A stretch of 64,000 bases of DNA from Bradyrhizobium guangdongense (GTDB taxonomy: Bacteria; Pseudomonadota; Alphaproteobacteria; Rhizobiales; Xanthobacteraceae). Location: the NCBI RefSeq assembly GCF_004114975.1, contig NZ_CP030051.1, forward strand, positions 4,526,001 to 4,590,000. Reading direction: 5' to 3'. A program made the translations under genes and the position numbers. Positions 22,269 through 26,635 of this stretch are shown here, one piece after another. The number at the start of each line of letters is the position of its first letter. Position 1 is the first letter of the stretch. The notes below the pieces were generated by a model that did no database searches, had not been told where the DNA came from, and worked only from the letters and a program-made list of their open reading frames with translations.

Positions 22269-24614
22269 GTGAAACGCAAGAATGACCGTGGCTTTCCCGA
22301 GAGGCAGGCCATCGTCGCCTTCATCAAGGCACATCCAGGAAAGGTCGGAACCCGCGACATCGCGCGCGAGTTCGGCCTGAAGAACGCCGATCGCATCGAG
22401 CTCAAGCGCATGCTGCGCGAGCTTGCCGATGACGGCACCATCAAGAAAAAGCGCCACACCGTCTCCGAGCCGGACAGCCTGCCGCCGACGCTGGTCGCCG
22501 ACATCACCGGCCGTGACCGCGACGGCGAGCTGATCGCCTCCCCTACCGAATGGGACGAGGTCGAGAGCGGCGAACCGCCAAAGATTCTCATCGAGATGCC
22601 GCGCCGGCCCAAGCCCGGCACCGCCGCAGGCGTAGGCGATCGCGCGCTGCTGCGGGTCGAACGCACGGACGAGACCGAGGGACCGGCCTATCGCGGCCGC
22701 GTCATCAAGGTGTTCGACAAGGCCAAGAGCCGCATCCTCGGCGTGTTCCGCGAGCTCCCCGAAGGCGGCGGACGGCTCGTGCCCGTCGACAAGAAGATGG
22801 CGGACCGCGAGCTGAACATCGCCGCGGCCGACACCAAGGGCGCGCAGGACGGCGATCTCGTCAGCGTCGATATCGTTCGCACCCGCAGCTTTGGCCTCGC
22901 CTCCGGCCGGGTGAAAGAAAAGCTGGGCTCGGTCAAGAGCGAGAAGGCGATCAGCCTGATCGCGATCTATGCCCACGACATTCCGCTGCAATTTTCCTCC
23001 GCCGCCGAGCGCGAGGCGGAAGCGGCCGAGCCCGCCAATCTGAAGGGACGCGAGGACTGGCGCGACGTTCCGCTCGTCACGATCGATCCGCCCGACGCCA
23101 AGGATCACGACGACGCGGTGCATGCGCAGACAGACCCCGATCCGAACAACAAGGGCGGCTTCATCGTCGATGTCGCCATTGCCGATGTGAGTTTTTACGT
23201 GCGGCCGGGCACCGCGCTCGACCGCGATGCGCTCGACCGCGGCAATTCGGTCTATTTCCCCGACCGCGTCGTGCCGATGCTGCCCGAGCGCATCTCCAAC
23301 AATCTCTGCTCGCTGGTACCGGGCGAGCCGCGCGGCGCACTCGCCGTGCGGATGATCATTGCGCCTGACGGGCGCAAGCGCTCGCACAGCTTTCATCGCA
23401 TCCTGATGCGTTCAGCCGCCAAGCTGAATTACGCGCAGGCACAAGCCGCGATCGACGGCAGGCCTGATGACACCACCGGCCCCCTGCTCGATCCGATCCT
23501 GAAACCGCTTTACGCCGCCTACGCCTGCGTCAAGCGTGCACGCGACGAGCGCGATCCACTCAATCTCGATCTGCCCGAACGCAAGATTCTCCTCAAGAGC
23601 GACGGCACGGTCGACCGCGTGGTCGTCCCTGAACGGCTCGACGCGCACAAGCTGATCGAGGAGTTCATGATCCTCGCCAACGTCGCCGCGGCCGAGATGC
23701 TGGAGAAGAAATCGCTCCCGCTGATCTACCGCGTGCATGACGAGCCGACGCTGGAGAAAGTCCACGCGCTCTCCGAATTCCTGGAGACGCTCGACGTTCC
23801 CTTTGCCAAATCAGGTGCGCTGCGTCCCACGCTGTTCAACCGCGTGCTGGCCCAGCTCGAAGGCCATGATTATTACCCGCTGGTGAGCGAGGTCGTGCTG
23901 CGCGCGCAGGCGCAGGCCGAATACTCCTCCGAGAATTACGGGCATTTCGGCCTGAACCTTCGCCGCTACGCGCATTTCACCTCGCCGATCCGCCGCTATG
24001 CCGACCTCGTCGTGCACCGCGCGCTTGTCCGCGCCCTCGGCCTTGGCGAAGGCGCGCTGCCCGACAGCGAGACGCCTGAAACGCTCGGCGAAGTGGCCGC
24101 GCACATTTCGCTGACCGAGCGTCGCGCGATGAAGGCGGAGCGCGAGACCGTCGACCGCCTGATCGCCCATCACCTCGCCGACCGCATCGGCGCGAGCTTC
24201 CAGGGCCGTGTCTCCGGCGTCACCCGCGCAGGGCTGTTCGTCAAGCTGAGCGAGACCGGCGCCGACGGGCTGATCCCGATCCGGTCCCTCGGCACGGAAT
24301 ATTTCAACTATGACGAGAGCCGCCACGCGCTGATCGGCACGCGCAGCGGCACCATGTACCAGCTGGGCGACGTCGTCGACATCAGGCTGATCGAAGCTGC
24401 TCCCGTCGCCGGCGCGCTGCGTTTCGAGCTGCTGTCATCCTCCAGCGAGACCAGCCCGCGCGAGCGCAGGCGTCCCGGCGGGCAACGCCGCCCCTCGTTC
24501 AAGGCCCATCCCGGCCGCAGCCCGGATAAAAAACGCAAGCCGCCGAAACCAAAATCCGGCAAAGCGAGGGGCAAGGGAAAGAACAAGGGCTCTTCAAATC
24601 GGGCTTCGAAATAG
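22269..24614 (+). CDS. rnr: Ribonuclease R with IS-altered C-terminus
   Basis: A 781-residue 3'-5' exoribonuclease. An N-terminal helix-turn-helix (GTRDIAREFGLKNADRIELKR) precedes cold-shock domains. The RNB catalytic motif is VTIDPPDAKDHDDAVHA and the S1 domain begins near GASFQGRVSGVTRAGLF. The C-terminus is Lys/Pro/Gly-rich. The start is a GTG 7 bp after the topA stop with GAGG upstream. The last seven residues (SSNRASK) and the stop lie inside the IS110-type element. The apparent original end, a Gly/Lys-rich stretch finishing GKAW and a TGA, is now at 26151-26201. The catalytic core is intact, so exonuclease activity is expected; tail functions may be changed. Confidence 0.92.
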   Translation: MKRKNDRGFPERQAIVAFIKAHPGKVGTRDIAREFGLKNADRIELKRMLRELADDGTIKKKRHTVSEPDSLPPTLVADITGRDRDGELIASPTEWDEVESGEPPKILIEMPRRPKPGTAAGVGDRALLRVERTDETEGPAYRGRVIKVFDKAKSRILGVFRELPEGGGRLVPVDKKMADRELNIAAADTKGAQDGDLVSVDIVRTRSFGLASGRVKEKLGSVKSEKAISLIAIYAHDIPLQFSSAAEREAEAAEPANLKGREDWRDVPLVTIDPPDAKDHDDAVHAQTDPDPNNKGGFIVDVAIADVSFYVRPGTALDRDALDRGNSVYFPDRVVPMLPERISNNLCSLVPGEPRGALAVRMIIAPDGRKRSHSFHRILMRSAAKLNYAQAQAAIDGRPDDTTGPLLDPILKPLYAAYACVKRARDERDPLNLDLPERKILLKSDGTVDRVVVPERLDAHKLIEEFMILANVAAAEMLEKKSLPLIYRVHDEPTLEKVHALSEFLETLDVPFAKSGALRPTLFNRVLAQLEGHDYYPLVSEVVLRAQAQAEYSSENYGHFGLNLRRYAHFTSPIRRYADLVVHRALVRALGLGEGALPDSETPETLGEVAAHISLTERRAMKAERETVDRLIAHHLADRIGASFQGRVSGVTRAGLFVKLSETGADGLIPIRSLGTEYFNYDESRHALIGTRSGTMYQLGDVVDIRLIEAAPVAGALRFELLSSSSETSPRERRRPGGQRRPSFKAHPGRSPDKKRKPPKPKSGKARGKGKNKGSSNRASK
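24597..24604. repeat. Left sub-terminal inverted repeat of the IS
   Basis: AATCGGGC, exactly complementary to GCCCGATT at 26138-26145. It starts 6 bp inside the proposed left boundary. The match is only 8 bp long, so it gains weight mainly from its position and from the disrupted rnr frame. Confidence 0.55.
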
Positions 24615-24699
24615 CGGTGCACGGGGATAATGCGGCCGTGGCCAAATCCGGAGCCTGGTGCAACGACTTGGAAGGTCGTTGCCACACAGGAGAGCTCCG

Positions 24700-25764
24700 A
24701 TGAAACTCTATGTTGGATTGGACGTCGGTCTTGAAGAAACCAGCCTTTGCATCGTCGACAGCGAGGGCCTCACGGTCCGCGAAGTTAAGGTCAGCACCGA
24801 GCCAGAGGCGATCCGCTCCGCTGTGGAGAACTACGCGGATCGCCTCGATAGAGTGGGAGTCGAGGCGTCATCGCTTGGTATCTGGCTGTATCGCGAATTG
24901 CAGCCAGCCGGGCTTCCAATCATCGTCGTGGAGGCACGCCACATGCGCGTTTCGCTGTCGACGATGCGCAACAAGACGGACCGAAACGATGCACGCGGCA
25001 TCGCGCAGATGATGCGGTTGGGCTGGTACCGTGCCGTCCATGTCAAGAATATCGACATGCAAAAAATGCGCACGTTGTTGACGAACCGGAAGCTGCTCAA
25101 GCGCAAATTGATCGACCTCGAGAACCACGTTCGGGGGGCACTGCGGGCCTATGGATTGCTGGTCGGAACGGTTGCCCGAGGTGCCTACGAAGCTCGCATC
25201 CGCGAACTGATCGAGCATTGCGACCCGGTTTTTGTGATGTCTATCCAGGTCATGTTGGACGTGCGCCGCGCTCTCCTCGAGGGCTACGATCGGCTACATC
25301 GCGTGCTCCTGCAGGTGGTCCAGCATGATCCTGTTTGCCGGCGCCTGATGACAGTTCCGGGTGTCGGTCCGGTCGTTGCCTTGTCGTTCAAAGTTGGCGT
25401 TGATGATCCTCATCGCTTTACCCGATCACGCACCGTGGGCGCCCATTTTGGGCTGACGCCGAAGCGTCACCAGTCTGGGACGTCGATCGATTTTGAAGGT
25501 CATATCAGCAAACAGGGCGATATCTCGGTGCGGGAGGCGCTATGCGAAGCAGCTGCAAGTCTGCTGCTGCGAGTCAGGAAATGGTCGGCGTTGCGAGCGT
25601 GGGGCCTGCGGATCGCCAAGCGTTCGAGCATGCTGTGTGCGATTGCCGCGGTCGCACGAAAGCTCGCATGCATTCTGCACCGGATGTGGATCAACGAAAC
25701 CGATTTCAACGTCGGATTCGGCGCCAAGATCACGCAGCGGCTGCGCCTAAAACCGGCGCAATAG
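24700..25764 (+). CDS. IS110 family transposase
   Basis: A 354-residue DEDD transposase. The N-terminal RuvC-like domain has Asp8 (YVGLDVGLEET), Glu55 (VGVEASSLG) and Asp94/Asp97 (NKTDRNDARGIAQ). The C-terminal Tnp_20 domain has TVPGVGPVVALSF, then FTRSRTVGAHFGLTPKRHQSG containing the candidate nucleophilic serines 243 and 259. The ATG at 24700 follows AGGAGAG by 5 bp; a longer frame back to 24658 lacks a ribosome-binding site. The gene is full length with no frameshift, so the element may still be active. Family members recombine DNA under guidance of an element-encoded RNA. Confidence 0.93.
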   Translation: MKLYVGLDVGLEETSLCIVDSEGLTVREVKVSTEPEAIRSAVENYADRLDRVGVEASSLGIWLYRELQPAGLPIIVVEARHMRVSLSTMRNKTDRNDARGIAQMMRLGWYRAVHVKNIDMQKMRTLLTNRKLLKRKLIDLENHVRGALRAYGLLVGTVARGAYEARIRELIEHCDPVFVMSIQVMLDVRRALLEGYDRLHRVLLQVVQHDPVCRRLMTVPGVGPVVALSFKVGVDDPHRFTRSRTVGAHFGLTPKRHQSGTSIDFEGHISKQGDISVREALCEAAASLLLRVRKWSALRAWGLRIAKRSSMLCAIAAVARKLACILHRMWINETDFNVGFGAKITQRLRLKPAQ

Positions 25765-26137
25765 CCGCTGAGCAGCCGAGCATAGAAAGCGCTGGGTTTG
25801 TGCCCGGCATGTTGAGGAGGAACGAAATTAGAGATCCGCGCGCGCGGTGAGCGGTCCCCCTGGCGGGGCCGCGAAACGGGGAATGTCCGCTATCTCTTGC
25901 CTGCTGCCGCCCTTCGGGGACGAGAGCGCAAAACTGCTTGGACAGCCCTGTTTACGAACCTGATGAAGAGCATGCGACGGCCGAAGTGCTGAACGCGAAG
26001 GAACGCATGGACCCCGCCTGGTGAATGCACGTCGCGTACGCGGCTGTGGTGAAGTTGTGCGTTGTTGCTGCAGGGAGTCGGTAATGGCTGAAGTACGAAG
26101 AGTCGAAGAAAAGCGTAGGAATGAGTTGACTTTGCCC
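25765..26137 (+). ncRNA. Candidate guide (bridge/seek) RNA region of the IS
   Basis: This 373-bp segment between the transposase stop and the right terminal repeat has no convincing ORF. IS1111-type elements are reported to encode their RNA guide in this interval. A strong hairpin is visible at 25851-25872 (GCGGTCCCC ... GGGGCCGC, loop CTGGC, one bulge). I could not identify target- or donor-binding loops by eye, so RNA ends and strand are inferred from the family. Confidence 0.4.
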
Positions 26138-26150
26138 GCCCGATTAGGAA

Positions 26151-26201
26151 GGCAAGAGTAAAGGAACCAAGGGCAAAGGGAAGAAGGGCAAGGCATGGTG
26201 A
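26151..26201 (+). pseudogene. rnr: Stranded original 3' end of rnr
   Basis: Read in frame, this stretch gives Gly-Lys-Ser-Lys-Gly-Thr followed by a Lys/Gly run ending GKAW and TGA (26199-26201). Its composition continues the KARGKGKNKG end of RNase R before the insertion at about 24590. The stop lies 2 bp before the ATG at 26204 of the DUF983 gene, so rnr and that gene were probably adjacent and coupled before the IS arrived. It is no longer translated as part of RNase R. Confidence 0.6.
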
Positions 26202-26203
26202 CG

Positions 26204-26635
26204 ATGAGCACAGTTCCGAAGATCTGGACGCGCGAGACCGGCCTCGTCGAGAAGCGCGATCTCTTTGCCGCGATGAAACGCGGTTTCCGCGGCCGCTGCC
26301 CGCGCTGCGGCGAGGGAAAGCTGTTTCGCGCCTTCCTGAAGACCGCGGACAATTGCTCGGTCTGCGACCTCGACTTCACGCCGCATCGCGCCGACGACCT
26401 GCCCGCCTATCTCGTCATCGTCATCGTCGGCCATATCGTCGTGCCCACGATCCTCTGGATCGAGACCAATTACACGACGCCGGTCTGGCTCAGCTTCGTG
26501 GCCTATCTGCCCTTCACCTTCTTCGCCTCGCTCGGGCTGTTGCAGCCGGTGAAGGGAGCTGTGGTCGGCTTGCAATGGGCTCTGCGCATGCACGGGTTTG
26601 ACGACAACCCGCCGGATGGTATTCCGCCTGTGTAA
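26204..26635 (+). CDS. DUF983 family membrane protein
   Basis: A 143-residue protein with a zinc-ribbon-like N-terminus (FRGRCPRCGEGKLFRAF, then CSVCDLDFTPHRADD, four Cys) followed by two hydrophobic helices (LPAYLVIVIVGHIVVPTIL; FVAYLPFTFFASLGLLQP). This is the DUF983 pattern, of unknown function. Starts at 26195 (ATG) or 26204 (ATG) are both possible. The original rnr stop lies at 26199-26201. Transcription once came through rnr and may now depend on the IS or a local promoter. Confidence 0.85.
   Translation: MSTVPKIWTRETGLVEKRDLFAAMKRGFRGRCPRCGEGKLFRAFLKTADNCSVCDLDFTPHRADDLPAYLVIVIVGHIVVPTILWIETNYTTPVWLSFVAYLPFTFFASLGLLQPVKGAVVGLQWALRMHGFDDNPPDGIPPV

Follow-up and report, generated by a model that had tools for sequence, protein, structure and literature searches.

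What places an insertion sequence in the last codons of the gene for RNase R, and does the C-terminus that it supplies matter to the enzyme? The locus that raises this question lies in a stretch of 64,000 nucleotides from Bradyrhizobium guangdongense (contig NZ_CP030051.1, positions 4,526,001 to 4,590,000), hereafter the window, whose own numbering is used throughout, with all features on the + strand. Here rnr, the RNase R gene, runs into an element of the IS1111 group. A sequence-only reading of the locus had taken the result for a natural tail-swap allele with functional meaning; it missed the target specificity of the element. In our overall interpretation, held at a probability of roughly 0.7, the IS1111-group insertion in rnr is an off-target hit by an element whose habitual target lies in a presumed origin of transfer (oriT) region, and not a demonstrated functional swap.

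An IS1111-group element in the 3′ end of rnr

The element occupies 24588–26150 (1563 bp), its ends being set by the IS1111 rule, 7 bp to the left and 3 bp to the right of the subterminal inverted repeats (PMC11187229, cited, like the other papers below, for the part of it drawn on here). With CAAATCGGGC taken as the repeat, the left extension is GGCTCTT and the right extension GAA. Since GGC flanks the element on both sides (24588–24590 and 26151–26153), the ends can be placed only to within 3 bp; beyond this common GGC there is no target duplication, as in the IS1111 group (PMC11187229). The left repeat CAAATCGGGC (24595–24604, end letters checked) and the right repeat GCCCGATTAG (26138–26147) agree at 9 of 10 positions, which is below the perfect or near-perfect 11–13 bp usual for IS1111; a 61%-identical relative has 13 bp, judged by eye. 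An open frame of 354 codons at 24700–25764, which could also begin further upstream at GTG 24658, encodes a DEDD transposase with Pfam matches to DEDD_Tnp_IS110 and Transposase_20 (PF01548, PF02371). Its C-terminal domain contains GLTPKRHQSG (by eye), fitting the IS1111 motif GL-P----S(T)G (PMC11187229).

The DEDD transposase, the presence of subterminal repeats (here shorter than usual) and the 7-bp and 3-bp extensions are common to ISEc11, ISKpn4 and ISPa11 of the IS1111 group (PMC11187229). The transposase gene is followed by 386 bp of noncoding sequence (25765–26150), against 112 bp ahead of it, and a longer downstream region is likewise an IS1111 trait. IS621-type IS110 elements, in which a bridge RNA guides a DEDD recombinase, have their noncoding region on the left, whereas that of the window element is on the right (PMC11208160); RNA guidance is common to both, for the window element by inference. 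The window element does not fit the IS110 group, with its bridge RNA on the left, the long noncoding region not being upstream of the transposase gene.

Relatives carry the empty site

The genus comparison set has one genome per species, and 262 of its 265 genomes matched; the listed alignment has 150 rows, for 148 other genomes and the two halves of the window genome. Among these listed matches, all 148 other genomes align unbroken across the site, and the window genome alone is split in two. In each of the 29 related genus loci read (L084–L112), rnr is uninterrupted and ends in AW and a stop, that is, in a tail of the kind now found at 26151–26201 and not near KGKNKG. Neither of the two findings that the sequence-only reading had named as refuting it was made. 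Among named genomes, 78 of 80 rnr loci were readable; 9 of the 78 end in W and a stop, the rest in other, mostly basic, sequences. Elsewhere in the window genome lies a second copy, 100% identical, at a habitual site upstream of a DUF3363/Relaxase gene. The empty sites and this identical copy, along with the Pfam matches and the 7-bp and 3-bp extensions, bear out the earlier assignment of an IS1111-type element to the 3′ end of rnr.

A single, recent insertion into the Lys/Gly-coding 3′ end of rnr is the best explanation that the sequence comparison offers. The idea that rnr is a regular second target was rejected, the site being occupied in 1 of 149 genomes among the matches listed. According to the part of PMC11187229 drawn on here, ISEc11 forms a circle and its rejoined target was not detected, so that an absent excision product would say little.

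The habitual location of the element

Matches to the element, many of them short, occur in 151 of the 265 genus genomes, and 51 fetched copies or pieces were examined. To the right of the element most have GGC and then gagataaaag or aagataaa, which gives a habitual target of GGC-RAGATAAA. The second copy in the window genome stands between a gene with an SLT transglycosylase domain and one with DUF3363 and Relaxase domains, and this setting recurs: by tblastn, a relaxase gene lies on the right in 23 of the 30 flanks of at least 700 nt, or 23 of 29 places once L134 and L176 are counted as one, and a transglycosylase gene on the left in 17 of 28 flanks. The relaxase genes are of the rlxS type, and in 16 of the 23 cases they start 161 bp from the element. 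Flanks without a right-side relaxase are those of L129 (the rnr copy), L131, L134, L139, L140, L143 and L176. Empty habitual sites (GACGGCGAGATAAAAG) were found in 55 of the 265 genomes, the reversed control giving no match in the genomes listed; among those fetched, a relaxase gene is present in 20 of 20 and a transglycosylase gene in 17 of 20. A 51%-identical element in another genus of the family sits, again before a relaxase gene, at GGCAGGATA, the complement of which is exactly TATCCTGCC.

Some flanks resemble ends of other elements. To the right of L139, L142, L170 and L173 the next sequence is cgcccgtaatcgg or cgctcgtaatcgg, like another element's left end, and beyond it in L139 there is a frame that looks, by eye, like an IS110-type transposase. 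The left flank resembles a related element's right end (GATTARGAN or close) in 7 of the 42 copies with a readable left end (L002 at 1420–1503, L132, L144, L145, L154, L167 and L172), as if these had inserted beside earlier insertions. The unoccupied habitual site of L195 has cccgattaaGAC immediately left of GGC, like the leftover right end of a lost element. A relative from another family, 61% identical (L221:1-4053), shows two tandem right ends some 40 nt apart (by eye), with AGCAAGATAAAAGAGAT after each, ahead of a relaxase gene.

A stretch of rnr resembles the habitual target

The element probably entered rnr because a stretch of that gene, GGCAAGAGTAAAGG, resembles its usual target. We scored the window with a weight matrix built from the 41 of 51 fetched copies or pieces in which both flanks are readable, representing 30 distinct sites, 29 without rnr. 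Across the 64 kb (about 128,000 positions), the rnr site scores 18.99 and the next unrelated position 10.67; the only position above rnr, at 26.03, is the element's own right junction. When each distinct right flank was allowed a single site in the matrix (17 in all), the rnr score was again reached by only one position. Since rnr so far outscores other window positions as a target, bar that right junction, the insertion there seems to be off-target. It is the right-hand side that carries the signal: the 13 bases of the rnr site on that side, taken alone, are matched by 4 window positions.

A predicted guide RNA

The downstream noncoding region contains a predicted seekRNA hairpin of 80 nt (25874–25953), strongly conserved among the copies in silico and close in length to the 82-nt seekRNA of ISEc11 (PMC11187229). 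On this structural model we infer that a seekRNA from the region guides insertion. A search of Rfam gave no bridge RNA family for the element, just three matches at chance level. The alifold consensus was folded without L150, L151, L174 and L178, which carry deleted or foreign sequence; in the fold of the window copy, four bases of the top-strand guide are paired with the opposite strand, leaving an open loop smaller than in most relatives shown.

The predicted top-strand guide, CTCTTGCC (25894–25901), lies in the 5′ part of the hairpin, which, like the hairpin's length of about 80 nt, is an IS1111-like trait; in that group the seekRNA is bound to the transposase and has its top-strand guide 5′ of the bottom-strand one. 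It is complementary to GGCAAGAG of the rnr site and makes 8 of 9 pairs over a 9-mer, a fit equalled in 9 of 500 shuffles. The 61%-identical relative, which sits at AGCAAGATA, has TATCTTGCT in its hairpin and makes 9 of 9 pairs (0 of 500 shuffles); here the change in the guide follows the target. The top-strand guide of the 51% relative makes 8 pairs and 1 wobble (4 of 500), and its bottom-strand guide is also above chance (9 of 500 shuffles with 8 letters, 3 of 500 with 12). The supposed bottom-strand guide of the window copy, AAAACTGC (25930–25937), was placed by eye, from its position and by analogy with a relative. It was rejected as evidence, its shuffle test being at chance, as is that of the 61% relative (430 of 500), and because this guide is unsupported for the window copy we give the guide step less weight.

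Targeted or chance insertion

Several observations weigh against a guided off-target hit. The 29 matrix training sites include near-orthologous places, and 3016 of 127,944 positions score at least as well as the rnr site does on its left side. At the habitual site of the second copy the fit of the top-strand guide is weak, with 7 pairs and 1 wobble and an equal fit in 46 of 500 shuffles, and that site fits the hairpins of the two relatives (61% and 51%) better than its own. The bottom-strand guide does no better than shuffles at rnr (463 of 500), at the second copy (448 of 500) or at the canonical site (478 of 500). Among 12 distant relatives parsed automatically, out of 20 tried, the relaxase motif is absent in 10 and present in 2.

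The element might instead have landed in rnr by chance, its likeness to the target being coincidental. Such an untargeted insertion would leave a left flank and a bottom-strand guide without signal, as found, and it would fit the behaviour of GGCRAGANNAAAG, a pattern drawn up after rnr had been seen, which occurs 15 times in the genome (2 of them occupied) against 6 in the reversed control. It fits poorly with the lead of 8 bits that rnr holds over every other unrelated window position, and with the 8 of 9 pairs made by the top-strand guide, and we consider it improbable.

Is the habitual target the nic region of oriT?

The oriT has been placed upstream of rlxS, after traF and msi107 (PMC11963761), and msi107 is a putative transglycosylase (PMC8627217). 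The reverse complement of the target, TATCTYG-CC (TATCT(C/T)GCC), resembles the MOBP nic consensus (C/T)ATCCTG(C/T) (PMC3772185). In Bradyrhizobium it takes the forms TATCTCGCC or TATCTTGCC; the exact form TATCCTGCC (TATCCTG-CC) is found in one other genus, beside a relaxase gene, and inverted repeats adjoin the canonical site. From these likenesses we infer that the habitual target is the nic region of oriT.

The target could instead be some other conserved intergenic sequence ahead of relaxase genes, for example a regulatory site. This reading would accommodate the copies at cgcccgtaatcgg and other sites, as well as the fact, which tells against nic, that the commonest form of the target, TATCTCG, departs from the consensus at two places. 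It would leave aside the position between transglycosylase and rlxS genes, just where the papers place oriT (PMC11963761, as far as drawn on), the exact TATCCTG-CC of another genus and the adjoining inverted repeats; we regard it as unlikely. The IS1111 targets given in the part of PMC11187229 drawn on are attC sites, REP sequences, Tn21-type ends (this one from a title in its reference list) and a short linear target, whereas that of the window element is the presumed oriT/nic region of rlxS-type elements. A limited literature search turned up no report of an IS1111 element at oriT.

What the insertion does to RNase R

As it now stands, rnr is an open frame at 22269–24614, from a GTG at 22269 to a stop at 24612–24614, and encodes 781 amino acids, against 789 in the in-silico restored form. 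Its end reads GKNKG-SSNRASK, the last seven residues (SSNRASK) and the stop being supplied by the element, as the sequence-only reading had recognised. The last 15 amino acids have been lost. The original 3′ end, a GGC core with these 15 codons and a TGA, is stranded to the right of the element at 26151–26201, where that reading had located it; it reads GKSKGTKGKGKKGKAW before the stop, and the lost tail with its stop, KSKGTKGKGKKGKAW, is left behind at 26154–26201. The join then proposed, 24590 to 26148, is indeed in frame but keeps two codons of the element; the join that removes the element exactly runs from 24590 to 26154 or, what amounts to the same, from 24587 to 26151.

The RNB, CSD2 and S1 domains are intact (Pfam), and after FELL the tail has 59 residues with a net charge of +18, compared with 67 residues and +23 when restored. 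With every domain that Pfam recognises retained, and the greater part of the basic tail, the enzyme is, to judge from its sequence, probably still active. In E. coli, shortening RNase R from 813 to 750 residues (63 from the C-terminus) left trans-translation unaffected and shortening to 735 affected it (PMC3949413); because the first truncation is harmless in that respect, the effect of losing 15 residues is expected, by analogy with another species, to be mild.

That the new tail alters RNA or ribosome binding and was selected for it is highly improbable. The Lys-rich tail does matter in E. coli, at residues 735–750 (PMC3949413), and the interrupted frame is open with a clean end. What is lost, though, is just the far end of the tail; the cut from 813 to 750 in E. 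coli left trans-translation as it was (PMC3949413); the tail stays basic, with a charge drop of merely +23 to +18; a single genome among those judged carries the change; and beyond the close clade the tails have quite different ends. Functional meaning, as claimed in the earlier reading, is not borne out by the comparison.

Insertion sequences that cut the 3′ ends of host genes ordinarily give a short element-encoded tail and a premature stop, and this outcome is what rnr shows. Unlike a generic 3′-end truncation, the rnr case has a site that is probably explained by likeness to the element's habitual target.

The downstream DUF983 gene

The DUF983 gene (26195–26635) has in-frame starts at 26195, 26198 and 26204. 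The restored rnr stop ends 2 bp ahead of ATG 26204, the spacing that had been described, but ATG 26195 and GTG 26198, also in frame, overlap that stop. The overlapping ATG is found in all 29 related loci, and because in three of them (L098, L102 and L109) there is no ATG 2 bp beyond the stop, the overlapping start is likelier there. In relatives the overlap reads ATGGTGA (window 26195–26204). By itself, this overlap may partly account for the retention of the AW end of RNase R.

The element puts 1.56 kb between rnr and DUF983 and, as far as the sequence tells, may uncouple their translation. The main consequence could in that case be a polar or expression effect, rnr having been parted from DUF983, and not the change of tail. 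The stop/start overlap in 29 of 29 relatives, by which translation may be coupled, favours this; DUF983 nevertheless retains its starts, along with about 45 bp of the sequence ahead of them. A scan of 24400–26300 found no sigma-70-like promoter reading into DUF983, although a scan of this kind is weak evidence in both directions. That such an effect is the main consequence seems to us rather unlikely.

Discussion

The off-target interpretation would run as follows: an IS1111-group element, guided by its seekRNA, habitually enters GGC-RAGATAAA some 160 bp ahead of relaxase genes of the rlxS type, and took the look-alike in rnr. A further-reaching version, on which we are almost evenly divided and lean slightly towards doubt, is that an IS1111 lineage whose seekRNA carries a short copy of the MOBP nic strand (TATCTTGCC-like) lives where rlxS-type elements cannot easily change without losing transfer. 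As the nic motif would stay whole on the right side after insertion, the element may ride along in conjugation, and rnr would have been struck by mistake, its Gly/Lys codons happening to mimic nic.

As a gene disruption, the rnr insertion is ordinary. It drew attention, however, to a group of insertion sequences, presumed to be RNA-guided, whose place is next to the transfer origins of one family of conjugative elements in rhizobia, and probably at those origins themselves; in this way it bears on the parasitism of conjugative elements. It bears also on the specificity of bridge RNA and seekRNA systems, in that a natural off-target hit of this kind points to the degree of mismatch that these guides may accept.

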